Assembly (NCBI RefSeq): GCF_014196455.1
Contig: NZ_JACIDS010000001.1
Coordinates: 992,001-1,056,000 of the forward strand
Length of the DNA: 64,000 nt
Origin: Kaistia hirudinis
Lineage (GTDB): Bacteria > Pseudomonadota > Alphaproteobacteria > Rhizobiales > Kaistiaceae
Direction of reading: 5' to 3'
A program made the position numbers and the translations under genes. A model generated the notes under the pieces. The model was not told the origin of the DNA. It did not search any database and was given only the letters and a program-made list of their open reading frames with translations. How positions within the stretch are numbered: the stretch's first letter is position 1; the number at the start of each line of letters is the position of its first letter. Of the stretch, positions 7,493 through 32,841 are shown one piece after another.

Positions 7493-8125
7493 TCAATCGC
7501 GGCGAAGACTGGCCTTGATCAGCCGATCCGCGACCGCCGCCAGCGAGCGGGACGGTCCGCCCTCGCCGAAGAGCTGGCCCGAAACATAGGCGCCTTCGAC
7601 GAGCAGCAGCAGGCCATCGCCGAGCTCTTCGGGATCGACGGCTCCCATGGCGGCGGCGAATTCGGTCAGCCGCTGGCGCAGCGCGCGCTTGTTGGCCTCG
7701 GCGACCTGGCGCGCCGGATTGGCGGGGTCGGGATATTCGACGGCCGCATTGGTCATGCCGCAGCCGCGATAGCCGGCGCGCTGAGCCCGCTCGCCGGTGC
7801 GCCGCAGGAAGGCGAGCAGCCGCTCGCGCGGATTATCCGAGCCCGACCCGTCCAGCGCCGCCTCGAAGCGGTGCCAGAAATCGGCATCGTATTCGCGCAT
7901 ATAGGCAGCGGCGAGCTCATCCTTGGATGCGAAGGCGCGATAAAGGCTCGGCTTGGTGACGCCGGCGCGCGCTACGATCTCGTCGACGCCGACAGCCCGG
8001 ATACCTTCGCGATAGAACAGATCGCTCGCCGTCCCGAGAATGCGCTCGGCCGCGCGCGGCTTCGCGGCTTCGGCAGGCTTCGCCTCGGGCTGCACCGGCA
8101 TGCTCGGACTCGCTCTATCGGTCAT
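7493..8125 (-). CDS. TetR/AcrR family transcriptional regulator
   Basis: A 210-residue regulator with an N-terminal helix-turn-helix domain at about residues 25-72 (AERILGTASDLFYREGIRAV, then ARAGVTKPSLYRAFASKDEL), followed by an all-helical ligand domain. The first ~22 residues are a Pro/Ala-rich extension. An operator-like sequence at 8154-8178 lies 29 bases upstream of its start, and a near-identical copy overlaps the start codon of the MFS transporter at 9697. This suggests it represses both its own gene and that transporter. The ligand is unknown. Confidence 0.92.
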   Translation of the reverse strand: MTDRASPSMPVQPEAKPAEAAKPRAAERILGTASDLFYREGIRAVGVDEIVARAGVTKPSLYRAFASKDELAAAYMREYDADFWHRFEAALDGSGSDNPRERLLAFLRRTGERAQRAGYRGCGMTNAAVEYPDPANPARQVAEANKRALRQRLTEFAAAMGAVDPEELGDGLLLLVEGAYVSGQLFGEGGPSRSLAAVADRLIKASLRRD

Positions 8126-23856: not shown

Positions 23857-24876
23857 TCAGCCGCCAGCCGCCTCGGACACCGCAAACTGCCGGAACGAAA
23901 CCAGCTTCTGCTGGCGCTCGTCCCAGAGCGCCAGATGGGCGCAGCGGAAGCTTTCGAAGAAGGTCAGGCGGCCGACGCCCGCCAGTTGCGGATGGTCCGC
24001 GAGGACTTCGCTGAGCCGATAGAACGGGATGCGGCTGGCGAGGTGATGCACATGGTGCACGCCGATATTGCCGGTGAACCAGGCGAGCGCCGACGGCAGT
24101 TCGTAGTGCGAGCTGCCATGCAGCGCGGCGTCCTGGAAGCTCCAGTCCGCCGCATGCACCCAGCGCGTGTCTTCGAACTGGTGCTGGACATAGAAGAACC
24201 ACATCGCCAGCGAGGCGGCGATGAGGATGACCGGGCCCTGGATCAGGACGAAGGGCCCGAGGCCGACCAGCCAGATCAGGCCGAGCACCACCGCCGCAAT
24301 CGCCGCATTGGTGCCCATGGTGCTGATCCACGGCGCCCTGCCCGCCCGCATCAGCCCCACCGGCAGGCGGTAATGCAGCAGGAAAAGATAGGCCGGCACC
24401 AGGCCGAACATGACGAGCGGATGCCGATAGATCCGGTAGCGCCGCCGCGCGGCGGGATCGAGCGCGGCATATTCCGCGACCGTCAGCGTCTCGATATCGC
24501 CGATGCCGCGCTTGTCGAGATTGCCGACCGCGGCGTGATGGATCGCGTGCGTCCGGCGCCAGAAGCCATAGGGCGTGAGCGTCACCACGCCGATGATCCG
24601 GCCGACCCAGTCATTCGCCGCGCGATGGGCGAAGAGCGCGCCATGGCCGCAATCATGCTGGAGCATGAAGAGGCGCATCAGGAAGGCCGCGGCGGGCACC
24701 GCCAGCAGCAGGCTGAGCCAATAGCCGACGGACAGCGACGCCCACATCAGCGCCCAGAGCAGCACCAGCGGTACGGCCGTGATCGACAGCTCGAACAGGC
24801 TGCGCCGGAGCGCGGGCTCGCGATAGCGGGCGAGTTCGCCCGCCGTGATCGCCGCATGGGGCGCGTTGGATGACAT
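23857..24876 (-). CDS. Membrane fatty acid desaturase, paralogue 1
   Basis: A 339-residue membrane di-iron desaturase. The three histidine boxes are HDCGH, HAIHH and HHVHH, spaced as in FADS-type enzymes. Four hydrophobic segments flank them in the usual 2+2 arrangement. It should introduce a double bond into acyl chains of membrane lipids; regiospecificity cannot be read. A second copy at 25356-26414 has the same boxes and long shared stretches such as NDWVGRIIGV, so the two arose by duplication. A DUF3309 mini-protein gene lies between them. Confidence 0.9.
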   Translation of the reverse strand: MSSNAPHAAITAGELARYREPALRRSLFELSITAVPLVLLWALMWASLSVGYWLSLLLAVPAAAFLMRLFMLQHDCGHGALFAHRAANDWVGRIIGVVTLTPYGFWRRTHAIHHAAVGNLDKRGIGDIETLTVAEYAALDPAARRRYRIYRHPLVMFGLVPAYLFLLHYRLPVGLMRAGRAPWISTMGTNAAIAAVVLGLIWLVGLGPFVLIQGPVILIAASLAMWFFYVQHQFEDTRWVHAADWSFQDAALHGSSHYELPSALAWFTGNIGVHHVHHLASRIPFYRLSEVLADHPQLAGVGRLTFFESFRCAHLALWDERQQKLVSFRQFAVSEAAGG

Positions 24877-25355: not shown

Positions 25356-26414
25356 TCAGCTCGCCTGCGGCGCGGCGGCGGCGCTCCAGCGGCGCCAGCC
25401 CTTGAACGGCACCATCTGGCGGCGGCGCTCGTCCCAGAGGACGAGGCGGACCGTGCGCAGGCTGTCGCTAAGCGTGACGCGGCCGATGGAGCCGAGCTCG
25501 GGATGCGTCCGCAGGACCTTGGGGAGGTTGTAATAGGGAATCCGGCTGGCGAGATGATGGATGTGATGCAGGCCGATATTGGCCGTCATCCAGCGCAGGA
25601 AGCCCGGCAGCACATAATAGGAGCTGCCATGCAGCGCCGCCTCCTGATGCGTCCATTCCGGCGGGCGGGCCCAGAACGTGCCCTCGAACTGGTGCTGGAC
25701 ATAGAAGAGCCAGACGCCGATCGAGCCGGCCACCGCGACGATCGGAAGCTGGATCATCAGGAACGGCCCGAGGCCGACCAGCCAGATCAGAAAAACGGCC
25801 ACGGCGATGATCGCGAGATTGGTGCCCATCGCGCTCGCCCAGGGCCGCCAGCCTTCGCGCATCAGCCCGATCGGCAGGCGATATTGCAGCAGGAAGAGAT
25901 AGGCCGGCCCGATGCCGAACATGACCAGCGGATGGCGATAGGCACGATAGCCGATCCGCCCCCAGAAGCCGCTGGCACGATATTCCTCGACGGTCAGCGT
26001 CGTGACGTCGCCCATGCCGCGCTGGTCGAGATTGCCGGAGCCGGCATGATGCACCGCGTGGGTGCGGCGCCAGTAATCATAGGGCGTGAAAGTCGCGACG
26101 CCGATGATGCGCCCGACCCAGTCGTTGACGGCGCGACGCCGGAAGAAGGCGTCGTGGCCGCAATCGTGCTGGATCATGAAAAGGCGGACGAGGAAGGCCG
26201 CCGCCGGCACGGTGAAGAACAGCGCCAGCCACCAATGGCCGGTCGAAACCAGCCACCACATCACCACCCAGAAACCGGCAAAAGGCAGCGCGGTGACGAG
26301 GATTTCGAACACGCTGCGAACTTCATCAGGCTCGCGAAAGGCAGCAAGCAGCTTCGGCCAACGGCGCGTCCCGGCCGCGCCGGTCTCATGCGGAGCATCG
26401 ATCATGTCGGACAT
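25356..26414 (-). CDS. Membrane fatty acid desaturase, paralogue 2
   Basis: A 352-residue di-iron desaturase and tandem paralogue of the gene at 23857-24876. Histidine boxes are HDCGH, HAVHH and HHIHH. Shared blocks include NDWVGRIIGV, WRRTHA, IWLVGLGPF, FYVQHQFE and ALHGSS. The N-terminus is slightly longer. About 290 bases separate its stop from the mini-protein start, so it is probably transcribed from its own promoter at the edge of the accessory island. The two copies may differ in substrate or in temperature response. Confidence 0.9.
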   Translation of the reverse strand: MSDMIDAPHETGAAGTRRWPKLLAAFREPDEVRSVFEILVTALPFAGFWVVMWWLVSTGHWWLALFFTVPAAAFLVRLFMIQHDCGHDAFFRRRAVNDWVGRIIGVATFTPYDYWRRTHAVHHAGSGNLDQRGMGDVTTLTVEEYRASGFWGRIGYRAYRHPLVMFGIGPAYLFLLQYRLPIGLMREGWRPWASAMGTNLAIIAVAVFLIWLVGLGPFLMIQLPIVAVAGSIGVWLFYVQHQFEGTFWARPPEWTHQEAALHGSSYYVLPGFLRWMTANIGLHHIHHLASRIPYYNLPKVLRTHPELGSIGRVTLSDSLRTVRLVLWDERRRQMVPFKGWRRWSAAAAPQAS

Positions 26415-27138
26415 GGTCGAGCTATACAGGAGAAAGGCGCGGAAAGGGTGGAATTATCGGGGGTGGGCGGGGGGATTTGCGTGGGGGGCGGAGGCAGGCA
26501 GCGAGGGCCGTGGCGAATGAACCGTCATCCTGTCGAGCCACGATTCCAGAAACTCCAGCCGTTTGCCCTGCTGTCGGATCGGCCGGATCGAGAGAAAGCC
26601 AGTCATACGGCCCGGTCGAAAAGACGGTGACACCCACGGAGGCTCACGGAGGCGATCGAGGGAGCGTGCGCGTGGATTGGAGGCGAGTCAATGTTGGGGT
26701 GATGACTATTTGGGAAGGGCCTGACTTAGAGATGATTGAGGCTGAGGCGGATTGGTCTGCTTGGCGCCGCAATCGAAAGGTCGCCGCGGCTCTCACCAAT
26801 GACGGGTTTGGGGCCAGAAGTGGACTGGCCGGTCTTGGCTGCCGCTATGCAGATAGCGGCCGTGCGGCAGCCGACCCCACTGTGGTCGTAGCCGCTCGGC
26901 TCACTTGACGACGCTTATAGCCCAAATGGGGCGGTCTTTGAAGGCGCACGATGTTGCGCTCGAGCCCCGCAACGGACTCCATCCGGCTGGAAGTTATGCG
27001 AACTCGATGTAGTGGCGCGGGCGTTCGAGAGGACAATTGCACCGCACTGCGTTGGAGGCAGTCAATGCGCGGCGAGCGTACTAGTCAAACGGCTGCACAA
27101 AAGCTCTACTCCTCGGATTGATTGCGAGGGACTCCGCC
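26415..27138. other. Left flank of accessory island, no confident gene
   Basis: About 720 bases of mixed, AT-richer sequence. A plus-strand frame at 26477-26908 exists, but its N-terminal half has no family similarity and the start lacks a ribosome-binding site; its second half contains a Trp- and Glu-containing stretch (GPDLEMIEAEADWSAW) that might be a decayed gene. No direct repeat matching the right flank was found by eye. Confidence 0.5.
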
Positions 27139-28734
27139 GTGCGTCTGCTTAATGCCCATATCACCAGGTTCCGTCGTTTCGCCGAACTGACCGTCCAGGA
27201 TATCCCAGCGAGCGCCAAGCTTGTGGTGCTTGCTGGACCGAACGGATCCGGCAAGTCTTCGCTCTTTGATGCTCTGCTTCTACGTTACCGCATAGATACG
27301 GGATACGGCTGGAACGGCGATACTAAGTACTACGATCGGCCGCAGGATCCGGTCGTCGACCTCGGCGCTAGGATCTCCGTCACCACCGACACTAGCAACA
27401 GCTTCGCCCGAGGCAACCTATACGTGCGGACCGCGTACAGGAACGACCATGAATTCACCAGCGATACCCTCCGCCGGCAGGGACCCATCTTTGATAACCT
27501 CCGCTTGAATCGGCTGATCGAGCCCGACGCGACGGTCAGCGTCAACTACCAGCGCCTTGCCTCCCAAGCGATGGAGGACGTATTCGTCAACGAGGCGGCC
27601 GGGACGACCATGGGCGACTACCGCGAGAAGCTGATTGGCGAGGTCCGGTCGCCCTTGAAGCGGTTGTTCCCCGATCTGACGTTCGTCGGTGTAGGCAATC
27701 CTCTCGACCAGGGTACCTTCCAGTTCGATAAGGGTACCTCGAGAGGATTCGACTACAAAAACCTCTCCGGAGGTGAGAAGGCTTCCTTCGACCTGATCCT
27801 CGATTTCGTGGTCAAGCGGCGCAGTTATGCGGATGCGATCTACTGCATCGACGAGCCGGAAACCCACATGAACACGCGGCTACAGGCGGCGCTCCTCGGC
27901 GAACTGGTAGGTCTACTTCCTGGCAACTCTCAACTCTGGATCGCGTCGCACTCGATAGGGATGATGCGGAAGGCACGCGAGATGTACGATGCGGACCCGA
28001 CGTCGGTGGCCTTCATAGATTTCAGCGGTCACGACTTCGATCAAGTAGCTATTCTCTCCCCGAGCAGGCCCACCCGCGCCTTCTGGGAGGGGGTGATGCA
28101 CGTCGCCCTCGACGATCTCGCTGCGCTGGTAGCACCCAAGCAAGTGGTCATCTGCGAAGGCAACCCTATGGGTTCGGTGCCGGGGAAGAATACCGAGCAC
28201 GACGCTCGGGTCTACGAAGCGATCTTCGCTGACGAGATGCCCGAGACCGCCTTCATTTCCGCCGGCAACTCGAAGGAAGTACAGAATGATTTCATCGGAT
28301 TGGCAACCGTGCTGCCGAAGCTTACCTCCGGCATCAAAATCATCCGCCTCATCGATCTTGACGATCACACCCCGGCAGACGTCGCAGCCTTCAAGAGCAA
28401 AGGCGTAAACGTTCTGAGCCTTCGACATCTCGAATCCTACCTCTACGATGACGAAGTGTTAATTGCCCTCTGCGACTCGGTCGGGAAACCAGGGAAGGCG
28501 GCGGACCTAATCGCCGCCAAGGCTGCTGCAATCGCCAGCGTGGTGAGCCAGGGCCACCCGGCGGACGACATTAAGAAGGCCGCGGGTACCATCTATGTCG
28601 CGGCCAAGCAAATTCTGTCGCTCACTCAGATGGGCAATGATGCTCCTGCGTTCGCACGTAATACGCTATCGAAGCTGATCAGGCCCGGTATGGCCATCCA
28701 TGACAAACTGCGCATAGACGTGTTTGGAGTCTGA
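27139..28734 (+). CDS. OLD-like AAA/ABC ATPase with C-terminal TOPRIM-like domain
   Basis: A 531-residue protein. Walker A is GPNGSGKSS (residues 33-41), the ABC signature is NLSGGEKASF (about 208-217), Walker B is YCIDEPETHMN (about 235-245), and an ASHS H-loop lies near 270. The second half shows a TOPRIM/DUF4435-like pattern: VVICEGN (Glu near 340), DARVYEAIF, LIDLDDHT (about 403-410) and LRHLESYLYDDEVL. This architecture matches OLD-family and PARIS-type (AriA+AriB) antiphage proteins, with both halves in one chain. A GTG start at 27139 has GAGGG upstream; a TTG at 27118 is less likely. Codon use differs from neighbouring core genes. Confidence 0.75.
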   Translation: MRLLNAHITRFRRFAELTVQDIPASAKLVVLAGPNGSGKSSLFDALLLRYRIDTGYGWNGDTKYYDRPQDPVVDLGARISVTTDTSNSFARGNLYVRTAYRNDHEFTSDTLRRQGPIFDNLRLNRLIEPDATVSVNYQRLASQAMEDVFVNEAAGTTMGDYREKLIGEVRSPLKRLFPDLTFVGVGNPLDQGTFQFDKGTSRGFDYKNLSGGEKASFDLILDFVVKRRSYADAIYCIDEPETHMNTRLQAALLGELVGLLPGNSQLWIASHSIGMMRKAREMYDADPTSVAFIDFSGHDFDQVAILSPSRPTRAFWEGVMHVALDDLAALVAPKQVVICEGNPMGSVPGKNTEHDARVYEAIFADEMPETAFISAGNSKEVQNDFIGLATVLPKLTSGIKIIRLIDLDDHTPADVAAFKSKGVNVLSLRHLESYLYDDEVLIALCDSVGKPGKAADLIAAKAAAIASVVSQGHPADDIKKAAGTIYVAAKQILSLTQMGNDAPAFARNTLSKLIRPGMAIHDKLRIDVFGV

Positions 28735-29050
28735 CCAGACCCGAATCCCTCTTACTACCCGCCTCGACAGTCACGTCTTTCGGAACCGAAGCAGCCAGGG
28801 GAACTCGGGGGCGGGCTACGTGGCGCATACATCCCGTCATTTCTGGCGATGAGGCAGCGGTTGACTGCGGTGTAGCAGGGCTAGGTGAGCGTATCCGGTG
28901 GGATCGCCTCCAAGCCCGGAAGTTCTACCCTAGAGTCGGATCTGCCCATAATCGACCGCGCCTCCGACGTTTCCCCACGTCGGCGAACGCTTTTTTTCGC
29001 ATGACGGGATGACCACGTCGCTGGCAGTATCTGCAAGAAAGGGGGCCGCG
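28735..29050. other. Spacer between the two island genes
   Basis: About 315 bases with no credible gene. It contains a terminator-like hairpin and T-run (28964-28997) and, at its right end, an AAGGGGG ribosome-binding site for the next gene. An alternative upstream start for that gene lies at 29009. Confidence 0.6.
28964..28997 (+). terminator. Terminator-like hairpin with T7 run
   Basis: CCGACGT pairs with ACGTCGG around a six-base loop, followed seven bases later by seven T residues. If active, it would separate transcription of the ATPase gene from the YaaC-like gene, or act as an attenuator. Confidence 0.5.
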
Positions 29051-30178
29051 ATGCCAAGACTGAATCCGGCTAGAACGGGCCAGCGAGTCCAAGTGAAGGC
29101 TAGACAGATCGAGTTCTCCTTTTGGCCGTCACGGCCGGGGCGGCTGCATAGGGGGCTTCAAAGTCGCCTCTTCGCACTCGATCCGTGGGCGATCATGCGC
29201 CAGACCGTGGAAAAAGAATGTCCGCGCTTGCGGCGTGACGAGGCCTTGGCGACGCTGGAGCAGGCTGAGGACTTCTATGTGATGGGAACAGAGCGTGGGA
29301 CCGAGGCCGCGCAGCCGCTCGCACTATACTACAGCTACATGAACCTGTTGAAGACGTTCTGCCTTACACGTGGCGCGCGCTCAACGTTCGATCAGGCGCA
29401 GCACGGACTTAAGGAACGCCTTCGGGCAGGCCGCCGCGAACTCGTGGACGCCTATCTCGTGGCCGACCAGACCACCGCCGCCCGCGCTCAGAACTTCGAT
29501 GAACTATATGGCTTGCTCACCGGCACGCACTTGGCGGGGCAAGCCAATTACGACCTGCCCGCCCTGCTTCCACAAATCCTGCCGGGGCACCGTTTGTGGG
29601 CGCAGGCGTCCGGCAAGGTCGAGCGGTTCATTGCCATCCACGACCTGCAATTCTGGCACGATGCGACGGCACATACGCTCTGGCTGCGCATCTATCTCCA
29701 AGCAGACGACCTATCGCGACTCAACGTTAGCCACACTCGCCTGCTCGCGGAATCAGGCCTCGGAGCCACCTTCCGCGAGGTGCAGTCGGATGTGCCAAGG
29801 CAGATTTGCCTTGAGCAGACCGCGACCCAACCCTGTCCCAACAACTACCCGGCGGACCATATTCACCATGTTGTGGAGACAGTGCGGCCCAGCCTCTGGA
29901 CTACCGTGTCATCGATCCCGCCTTATCGGCGATACTACCTTTATCTGTGTCCGCCCGCCGAATTGCCGCACCGTCTCCCACAACTTCTCTCGATGTACGC
30001 CGTCACGTTCTACCTAGGCTCGATCACAAGGTATCGCCCGCACCATTTCGACGCCCTGCTGCAGGGCGCCTTCGGACCTCGCGTGCGAGACTTCGTGACC
30101 GGCCAACCGCTTCAATTTCTTTATCTGATGGCATCGGAGATGGCGCGACGTGACGTCGCCAAGCCGAGCATCCTCTGA
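29051..30178 (+). CDS. YaaC-like protein
   Basis: A 375-residue protein resembling the YaaC-like family (Pfam YaaC). The N-terminal part has ALYYSYMNLLKTFCLTRG, matching the family's FYGLVQLIKACLLT-type helix, and the C-terminal part has SITRYRPHHFDALL, also typical. Family function is unknown. The ATG at 29051 is favoured by AAGGGGG upstream; 29009 would add 14 residues. It lies 316 bases after the OLD-like ATPase on the same strand, in an island of atypical composition, which suggests a shared role in defence or stress. No catalytic motif is evident to me. Confidence 0.65.
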   Translation: MPRLNPARTGQRVQVKARQIEFSFWPSRPGRLHRGLQSRLFALDPWAIMRQTVEKECPRLRRDEALATLEQAEDFYVMGTERGTEAAQPLALYYSYMNLLKTFCLTRGARSTFDQAQHGLKERLRAGRRELVDAYLVADQTTAARAQNFDELYGLLTGTHLAGQANYDLPALLPQILPGHRLWAQASGKVERFIAIHDLQFWHDATAHTLWLRIYLQADDLSRLNVSHTRLLAESGLGATFREVQSDVPRQICLEQTATQPCPNNYPADHIHHVVETVRPSLWTTVSSIPPYRRYYLYLCPPAELPHRLPQLLSMYAVTFYLGSITRYRPHHFDALLQGAFGPRVRDFVTGQPLQFLYLMASEMARRDVAKPSIL

Positions 30179-30599
30179 CGGTTCGGGACTACACCGAGGG
30201 TGTTTCATTGGGCGCGCCCATGGCGTCCGGCAGGTTCGTGACAAGACATATCCGCCATACTCATTGAACGCAGATTCTTGACCGAGTGGCGGCTCCCAGA
30301 ATTAGCTTTCGACCGGCGGGATGACCGAAATTGGGGCGCAAAGTCGACATCGCAGCAAGGGCCGTCGAGGGCTCTATGATGGGTCGTCAGCAGACGCTCA
30401 TGTGTCCCCAGAATGAATCACATGTGTCCCCAGAATGAATCAATTGAGCAAAACTACCGTCCGTCTTCTTGCAGTACGGGAAGCTGGTAGCGTTGCTTCC
30501 AAAGACGGCGTCGGCGATCCAATATCACGACAACGGCTCCTTCCCAATCTGGACAACGAGCCGCGCTGATGGCTGGGCGGCATGCTCCCGATGCCCCCC
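30179..30599. other. Right flank of accessory island
   Basis: About 420 bases with no credible gene. It contains an exact tandem 22-bp repeat at 30399-30442. The sequence changes back to GC-rich core DNA at the stop codon of the next gene, which marks the right edge of the island. Confidence 0.6.
30399..30442. repeat. Exact tandem 22-bp repeat, possible insertion-sequence end
   Basis: Two head-to-tail copies of a unit containing TGTGTCCCCAGAATGAATCA. TGTnCCCC-type motifs in multiple copies occur at the ends of IS21-family elements, where they bind the transposase. No istA or istB gene is present, so this would be a solo remnant end. Family assignment is from memory and is uncertain. Confidence 0.5.
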
Positions 30600-31718
30600 T
30601 CACTCCTCCTCCGCAAAGCTCCCCACCAGCTTCAGCCCCTCGATCCAGGTCGCGCCGTCCTGTTTGATGACGGTGCGCGGGGTGATGCCCGCTTCTTCGG
30701 CGAGGGCGGCGGCGAGGGGTTCGGAGTGGGTGACGACCCAGATCTGGGTGCGTTCGGCGGCCTTGGCGATCAGGCGCGCCAGCGGGGGGATGAGATCGGG
30801 GTGGAGGCTCGTTTCCGGCTCGTTCAGCGCGATGAAGGCCGGCAGGCGGTAGCTCGAGAGCGCCGCGACGAGGGCGAGATAGGCCAGCGTGCCGTCGGAG
30901 AGCTCATGCGCGCCGAGCGGACGCGGCAGATCGGCGAACTGGAGGCCGAGCGCCACGCGGCCATCGGGGAATTCGAAGGCGAGCCGGGCGCCGGGAAACG
31001 CGTCATGGATGGCGGCCGCGATCGCCGGCATCTCGCCGCGCACCTGTTTCACGGTCGCCAGCGCCGCGGCGAGATCCGCGCCGTTTGAGGCGAGCGTCGG
31101 TGTCGTGACCGCGAGGGCCGGGCGGCGGAGCGGCGAAGCCCGGTCGGTGCGGAAGTCGTGATAGAAGCGCCAGTCGGACAGCGCGCGCCGCACCGTCTCG
31201 AGCTCGGCGAAACGCCCCTGATCACGGAAGGCGGCGAGCGCGGTTTCCGACGGGACCAGCGCCTCGTCATAGGTGATGCGTGCGCCATCCTCGCCGCGCA
31301 GCCATGCGGCCGGGCCGGCGCGCTGCATCAGCGTGACGGGCCGCCGGCCGGAGGTCGCGCGCAGCGACTCCGCCTTGACCAGCGGCTCGGCGAGCGTCAG
31401 CGCCGCCTCGTCGAGCGCCGGCGTGCCGATCTCGATGGCATAGTCGAGATCGTCGAACACGGCGCGCAGCGACAGCCGCGCTCTGTCGCCCTTCCGGCGC
31501 GGTCCGGCCCAGAAGACGCTCTCGACGCCGCCCTCCTCCACGATCGCCCGCGTGATGGTCCCCGTGGCCGCGTGCTGCAACAGCTCGAGCGCGCGGTAGA
31601 GATTGGATTTGCCGACGCCGTTCCTGCCGAGAAGCACCGTCAGCCGCCCGATCGGCAGATAGATCTTCCGCAGCGAGCGGTAGTTCTCGATCGAGACGGC
31701 TGTCAGCGGCAGCTTCAT
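30600..31718 (-). CDS. AAA family ATPase, RecF/AAA_21-like
   Basis: A 372-residue ABC-type ATPase. Walker A is GRNGVGKSN (residues 31-39), the signature is HELSDGTLAYLALV, the Walker B region reads IALNEPETSLHPDL, and the H-loop is VVTHSEPL. The usual Walker B aspartate before the glutamate is Asn, a variant seen in this subgroup. No nuclease or TOPRIM domain is attached. It starts 10 bases after the frmA stop, so it is probably in that operon and belongs to the core genome rather than to the neighbouring island. Function unknown; SMC/RecF-like DNA binding is likely. Confidence 0.82.
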   Translation of the reverse strand: MKLPLTAVSIENYRSLRKIYLPIGRLTVLLGRNGVGKSNLYRALELLQHAATGTITRAIVEEGGVESVFWAGPRRKGDRARLSLRAVFDDLDYAIEIGTPALDEAALTLAEPLVKAESLRATSGRRPVTLMQRAGPAAWLRGEDGARITYDEALVPSETALAAFRDQGRFAELETVRRALSDWRFYHDFRTDRASPLRRPALAVTTPTLASNGADLAAALATVKQVRGEMPAIAAAIHDAFPGARLAFEFPDGRVALGLQFADLPRPLGAHELSDGTLAYLALVAALSSYRLPAFIALNEPETSLHPDLIPPLARLIAKAAERTQIWVVTHSEPLAAALAEEAGITPRTVIKQDGATWIEGLKLVGSFAEEE

Positions 31719-31728
31719 TGCGCGCGGA

Positions 31729-32841
31729 TCAATACACCACCACCGAGCGGATCGACTTGCCCTCATGCATCAGGTCGAACGCCGTGTTGATCTCGTCGAG
31801 CGGCATGGTGTGGGTGATCAGATCGTCGATGTTGATCTTCCCCTCCATGTACCAGTCGACGATCTTCGGCACGTCGGTGCGCCCGCGCGCGCCGCCAAAG
31901 GCCGAGCCCTTCCAGACGCGGCCGGTGACGAGCTGGAACGGGCGGGTCGCAATCTCGGTGCCCGAGGGCGCCACGCCGATGATGATGGATTCGCCCCAGC
32001 CGCGATGGCAGCACTCCAGCGCCTGGCGCATGGTGTGGACATTGCCGATGCATTCGAAGGAGAAATCGGCGCCGCCGCCGGTCAGGTCGATGATCGCCTG
32101 CACGACCTTGTCGCGGCCGACCTCATCGGGATTGATGAAGTGCGTCATGCCGAACTTCCGCGCCATCTCGACCTTGCCGGGGTTCAGGTCGACGCCGATG
32201 ATCTTGTCCGCGCCGACCATGCGCGCGCCCTGGATCACGTTCAAACCGATGCCGCCGAGGCCGAACACCACGACATTGGCGCCCGGCCAGACCTTGGCCG
32301 TATAGACCACCGCGCCGATGCCGGTCGTCACGCCGCAGCCGATGTAGCAGATCTTGTCGAAGGGCGCGTCCTCGCGGACCTTGGCGAGCGCGATCTCCGG
32401 CAGCACGGTGAAGTTCGAGAAGGTCGAGGTGCCCATATAATGGAACACCTGCTCGCCCGAGCAGGAGAAGCGCGTCGTCGAATCCGGCATCAGGCCCTGG
32501 CCCTGCGTGGCGCGGATCGAGGTGCAGAGATTGGAGCGGCGCGACAGGCACGTCTTGCAGTTGCGGCACTCGGGCGTATAGAGCGGGATGACGTGGTCGC
32601 CGACCTTCACCGAGGTGACGCCGGCGCCGACCTCGCGCACGATGCCCGCGCCCTCATGGCCGAGGATCGCCGGGAACTTGCCCTCCGAATCGAGGCCGGA
32701 CAGCGTATAGGCGTCGGTGTGGCACACGCCCGTCGCCATGATCTCGACGAGCACCTCGCCCGCCTTCGGCCCGTCGAGCTCGATCGTCTCGATGGTCAGC
32801 GGCTTGTTGGCTTCCCAGGCGACTGCGGCACGGGTCTTCAT
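31729..32841 (-). CDS. frmA: S-(hydroxymethyl)glutathione dehydrogenase / class III alcohol dehydrogenase
   Basis: A 370-residue zinc medium-chain dehydrogenase that oxidises the glutathione-formaldehyde adduct with NAD+, and can also reduce S-nitrosoglutathione. Catalytic zinc ligands appear in GVCHTD, GHEGAG and YIGCGVTTG. The structural zinc loop is [18 protein letters not shown]. The NAD motif is [11 protein letters not shown]. Full length and very well conserved. It is followed by an ATPase gene 10 bases later. S-formylglutathione hydrolase (frmB) is not in the window. Confidence 0.95.

Follow-up and report, generated by a model that had tools for sequence, protein, structure and literature searches.

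An insertion of about 4.17 kb in the genome of Kaistia hirudinis contains a gene for a single-chain ABC ATPase-TOPRIM protein. With a probability of roughly 0.7, it is a defence gene of the PARIS/OLD kind that stands alone, namely a divergent single-chain AriAB whose TOPRIM nuclease would halt growth, and the neighbouring YaaC gene is independent cargo. This reading is built on the domain make-up of the protein, its predicted fold and conserved catalytic positions, on the foreign origin of the insertion, on the extent of the transferred unit and on the absence of linkage to YaaC. An earlier note on this DNA had proposed a two-gene defence module. The ABC ATPase-TOPRIM chain, the foreign origin and a likely defence role were retained, and the partnership with YaaC was not.

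An insertion of foreign origin

In the window, i.e. the whole 64-kb stretch of DNA that was analysed, the insertion is flanked by genes for a fatty acid desaturase and an AAA ATPase (Table 1). The two genes that it carries lie on the same strand, as first described. Its limits were obtained by blastn against seven same-genus loci, which belong to seven of the 13 remaining genomes of the genus and were chosen for good desaturase matches and enough room. In all seven, similarity stopped at 26360-26428 on the left and set in again at 30600-30628 on the right, in agreement with the block edges of 26430 and 30600 proposed earlier. The gap between both similar stretches measured 57-147 bp in three of these relatives and about 1.1 kb in the four others. 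The content of the site thus varies across the genus, and the insertion with its two genes is of foreign origin.

Table 1. Coordinates of the insertion, its genes and its neighbours in the window
Feature	Position	Strand	Basis
Insertion, ~4.17 kb	26429..30599	.	blastn vs 7 same-genus loci
Fatty acid desaturase gene, left neighbour	25356-26414	-	Pfam FA_desaturase
AAA ATPase gene, right neighbour	30600-31766	-	
Conserved leader of ATPase gene, CTAGTCAAACG block (by eye)	27081..27138	+	DNA similarity to homologue loci
Single-chain ABC ATPase-TOPRIM protein, 531 aa, divergent AriAB-like	27139..28734	+	Pfam, PADLOC, predicted models, structural matches
TOPRIM glutamate codon, candidate metal ligand (E347 of 538-aa ORF)	28156..28158	+	E in 15/15 aligned C-terminal domains
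TOPRIM D-x-D codons (D413, D415 of 538-aa ORF)	28354..28362	+	both D in 15/15 aligned domains
YaaC-family protein, 375 aa from ATG 29051	29051..30178	+	PF14175 E 3.1e-30

The AT-richer block and the deviant codon use that had been noticed beforehand were both confirmed. GC content is 0.588, 0.587 and 0.611 in the three 1-kb bins between 27001 and 30000, most other bins of the window ranging from 0.62 to 0.71, with values of 0.597-0.608 also found in the bins at 8001, 49001 and 60001. For the ATPase-TOPRIM and YaaC genes respectively, the codon adaptation index (CAI) is 0.455 and 0.432 (reference minimum, 0.529) and GC3 is 0.726 and 0.713 (reference minimum, 0.774). Both genes are therefore below all 46 reference genes, which are the other window genes of at least 150 aa found with a simple caller and from which the CAI weights were themselves derived. 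One of 14 genomes of the genus has the ATPase family, as have 3 of 289 genomes of the class, the K. hirudinis genome being counted in both cases.

No second copy of either insertion end was found in the same genome, no plasmid matched the two non-coding stretches, no tRNA gene was found in the 64-kb window and no obvious flanking repeat was seen at the insertion ends. Scanning for promoters and terminators gave counts near chance, 3 where a mean of 1.3 is expected and 4 where 2.9 is expected. Close to the right edge, at 30399-30442, a 22-bp unit, CATGTGTCCCCAGAATGAATCA, is repeated in tandem without mismatch.

On the left side, a second desaturase gene (23857-24876) adjoins the neighbour of the insertion. 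Both match Pfam FA_desaturase and are about 60% identical, and they probably arose by tandem duplication; the desaturase search gave one match each in most same-genus genomes. On the right side, the AAA ATPase gene matches the PADLOC HEC-01A profile (7.1e-46). It was considered as a third component and rejected because it is also found in same-genus loci without the insertion, 6/7 by gene call and 7/7 by DNA similarity. This is a defence-profile match on an apparent core gene of the genus.

A single-chain ATPase-TOPRIM protein

The open reading frame of the first gene extends over 27118-28734 (538 aa, open from TTG 27118). An ATG or GTG was found at the position of GTG 27139 in the nine homologue rows compared (9/9), which gives a protein of 531 aa. 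In this numbering the Walker A motif (GPNGSGKSS) falls exactly at residues 33-41 as previously reported, and the motifs LSGGE, DEPETH, CEGN, DARVYEAIF, LIDLDDHT and LESYLYDDEVL are all present. Pfam AAA_21 matches the protein above its curated cut-off (61.2 bits, E 2.2e-16, cut-off 27) and AAA_15 below it (29 bits, cut-off 32.1). DUF4435 (PF14491) gave no match to the window protein at E <= 1 and weak matches in 6 of 15 relatives, the best at E 7.4e-4. The PADLOC AriAB profile PDLC02981 matches the protein with an E value of 2.1e-25 (87.5 bits); it matches 17/17 family members and is top-ranked in the four whose tables were compared.

In the predicted model, the closest structural match of the TOPRIM half is AriB, followed by the TOPRIM domains of OLD and GajA. 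Model and alignment together indicate an AriB-like TOPRIM fold with a catalytic glutamate and a D-x-D motif. The view that an ABC ATPase and a TOPRIM/DUF4435-like domain share one chain is upheld by Pfam AAA_21 and by the predicted fold. PDB sequence searches with the queries P0001, P0002 and A3 returned no AriB and no YaaC structure, and query A2 returned AriA at E 0.0027, behind PtuA, Rad50 and UvrA.

The gene is preceded by a conserved leader, which is probably its promoter, as judged from the sequence. The similarity of the leader starts at 27081 in loci L015, L033 and L034 and at 27103 in L016, and it is partial in L016 and L035. The DNA common to the closest homologues begins at 27081 or 27103 and ends at 28724-28800. 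It comprises the gene, some 60 bp of upstream sequence and no more than 66 bp downstream, and does not reach YaaC. The moving unit is therefore the ATPase gene with its own short leader.

Relation to PARIS, OLD and Gabija

PARIS, encoded by two genes or by a single-gene fusion, is reported in 5.2% of genomes (abstracted from PMC9122126), and published AriAB fusions of PARIS already have the single-chain ATPase-TOPRIM layout. Like the fused AriAB (PDLC02981, PDLC02982), the window protein combines in one chain an AAA_21/ABC ATPase and, after it, a DUF4435-like TOPRIM, with the catalytic E and D-x-D and with AriB as its closest predicted fold. However, its score with the first fused profile contrasts with the 655.8 bits of a clear fused member, and with the other fused profile it reaches 36.9 bits against 287.9 for the control. 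It also lacks a DUF4435 match, and its TOPRIM domain has, by eye, about 8-12 extra residues between the glutamate and the next conserved aspartate. Because of the missing DUF4435 match, the protein was classed as AriAB-like of the PARIS/OLD kind and not as PARIS. Lysines K60 and K64 of AriB, located between strands 2 and 3 and described as needed (PMC12409363), have no fully conserved counterpart here.

The protein also resembles Class 1 OLD (P2 Old, T. scotoductus OLD), a lone gene with an ABC ATPase and a TOPRIM in one chain. When the neighbours of the ATPase loci were compared with each other, no family was common to more than two loci, so that the gene behaves as a loner, as in Class 1 OLD, and has no constant GajB-like partner. 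A Class 1 OLD-type DNA nuclease that degrades invading DNA, instead of a PARIS-type tRNase, is on balance rather unlikely. The same one-chain domain order and loner status are described for Class 1 OLD in PMC10568477, and the OLD and GajA TOPRIM domains come next after AriB among the structural matches. Nevertheless, the closest fold and the closest profiles are those of AriB and AriAB. The lysine column between strands 2 and 3, K386, weakens this objection, being K in 8/15 rows, so that an AriB-like grip on tRNA would be conjectural. According to PMC10568477, AriB cleaves tRNA and OLD and GajA cleave DNA, and it is not clear if PARIS fusions and Class 1 OLD differ in the way they work.

As for Gabija, GajA likewise has ATPase and TOPRIM in one chain, but the window protein gives lower structural scores with it (6.6-6.0). 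No GajB-like UvrD/Rep helicase is present beside the ATPase-TOPRIM gene in the window, its neighbours being the desaturase, YaaC and AAA ATPase genes.

Absence of linkage with YaaC

The second gene had been described as YaaC-like, and its match to PF14175 (106.1 bits, cut-off 27) substantiates this identity. Its open reading frame spans 29009-30178, and relatives of its subclade begin level with ATG 29051, which is probably the start. That the two genes form a real two-gene system of this lineage, assembled recently, is very improbable. They do lie on the same strand of one insertion, 316 bp apart, and share an atypical codon use. Against this, no YaaC gene was found in the examined flanks of the 21 ATPase-family loci sampled outside the window (0/21), of which 17 have at least 1.5 kb downstream and are assessable (0/17; L025, L026, L028 and L034, with less than 0.1 kb downstream, were left out). 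Conversely, no ATPase gene was found in the examined flanks of five YaaC loci (0/5; L013, L050, L052, L063 and L064, the flanks of L063 and L064 being shorter than 1 kb on one side). The distant AriAB loci L014 and L029 were left out of these counts and used as controls. Moreover, the DNA unit shared by the ATPase homologues stops before YaaC, and YaaC has a purine-rich stretch of its own ahead of its ATG (by eye). The earlier note had itself named homologues that almost never neighbour each other across genomes as refuting the pair, and this is what was found. The partnership was rejected for want of linkage and because the shared DNA ends before YaaC.

The flank searches used HMMs made from four and six YaaC sequences, which recovered all six known YaaC copies, and not PF14175. 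Among 16 whole host genomes searched with PF14175, YaaC was found in one (1/16), a Bosea, about 11 kb upstream of the ATPase homologue on the same contig. Several genes separate the two, and this copy is distant (20-21% identity). The same profile detected YaaC in one of the 14 genomes of the genus, K. hirudinis counted, and in none of five records, from plasmids and viruses, that contain the ATPase family. The negatives of all these PF14175 searches may be too many. The profile matched the Bosea, class and Pseudomonas records and 0/14 control genomes, B. subtilis among them in spite of its yaaC gene, so that distant members may be missed.

Genomic context of the ATPase family

Single homologues lie close to known or candidate defence genes or to mobility genes. 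The copy in L028, itself split into two pieces, is beside type I restriction subunits and Mrr, that of L017 adjoins Dsr1, and that of L020 is beside Tn7/Tni-type transposition genes and a PDC-S06 ATPase. An integrase gene was found near the homologue in L018 and L036, with a weak match below the cut-off in L033. Viral contigs contain four of the family homologues, and a Zymomonas plasmid contains another; in L015, L054 and others the surroundings look like plain chromosome. Since these neighbours were chosen by eye, they are supporting context and not a measured enrichment. Stops or a frame change interrupt the homologues in L016, L028 and L054, which suggests rapid turnover or assembly errors.

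Among 50,697 phage records, none matched the ATPase-TOPRIM or the YaaC protein, and 2 of 72,556 plasmid records matched the ATPase, one of them being the distant control L014. On this small Lichenicola plasmid (L014:1947-8567), the fused AriAB of 655.8 bits is followed a few kb on by an AriA-like gene, after which comes a DUF4435 gene that matches AriB more weakly.

YaaC as probable separate cargo

The window YaaC is 47-48% identical to three relatives, one from a Pseudomonas plasmid and two from viral contigs, and 21% and 20% identical to the copies in Bosea and in another same-class genome, respectively. The relative on the Pseudomonas plasmid, which is conjugative, is in a region with ABC-3C genes, and a metallophosphatase gene lies a few kb away (L013:5131-6582). 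In one viral contig (L064:3605-6134), the relative (47% identity) is directly downstream of an integrase gene, which suggests mobile cargo. In the other (L063:897-7042), its neighbours are umuC/umuD-like genes and a gene for a metallophosphatase-nSTAND protein. The scan of viral contigs gave none with YaaC alone as query and two with a YaaC alignment. Four plasmids matched YaaC among the 72,556 records, namely three Pseudomonas plasmids of the same kind and one Vibrio plasmid (21% identity).

YaaC is thus probably a separate, independently mobile second cargo gene of the insertion and not a subunit. No study of YaaC function was found in the literature covered, subscription journals and preprints lying outside this coverage, and B. 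subtilis yaaC is given as of unknown function in one table of PMC11141002. Tentatively, the YaaC subclade might be an undescribed single-gene cargo of mobile elements, possibly a gene for phage defence or for competition between mobile elements, beside an AriAB-like clade that is divergent and may have another trigger and another substrate than PARIS.

Proposed function

A housekeeping repair ATPase (RecF, Rad50 or SMC type) to which an accessory domain has been joined is hardly credible, because the family is rare in the genus and class and is present here in an insertion, and because the TOPRIM half is AriB-like by structural match, so that the refutation set beforehand, a housekeeping family without TOPRIM, does not apply.

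By analogy with known systems, defence, sensing of a trigger, nuclease activity and a nucleic acid substrate are probable attributes of the divergent single-chain AriAB. PARIS serves as a model for a sensor ATPase combined with a two-metal TOPRIM nuclease (PMC12409363). The ATPase half, of the Rad50/OLD type, would oligomerise and keep the TOPRIM half inactive. An infection trigger sensed by the ATPase half, in PARIS a phage anti-restriction protein, would then release or activate the TOPRIM domain. The latter, as a two-metal nuclease, would cut nucleic acid, either tRNA as AriB or DNA as OLD and GajA, and growth would halt before phage is made.

The two-gene reading of this locus is hereby corrected, and the protein is placed between PARIS and OLD, in a divergent clade of single-chain proteins. 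This compact AriAB-like clade would be a handy test case, and the subclade of plasmids and viral contigs is a lead for the YaaC family.
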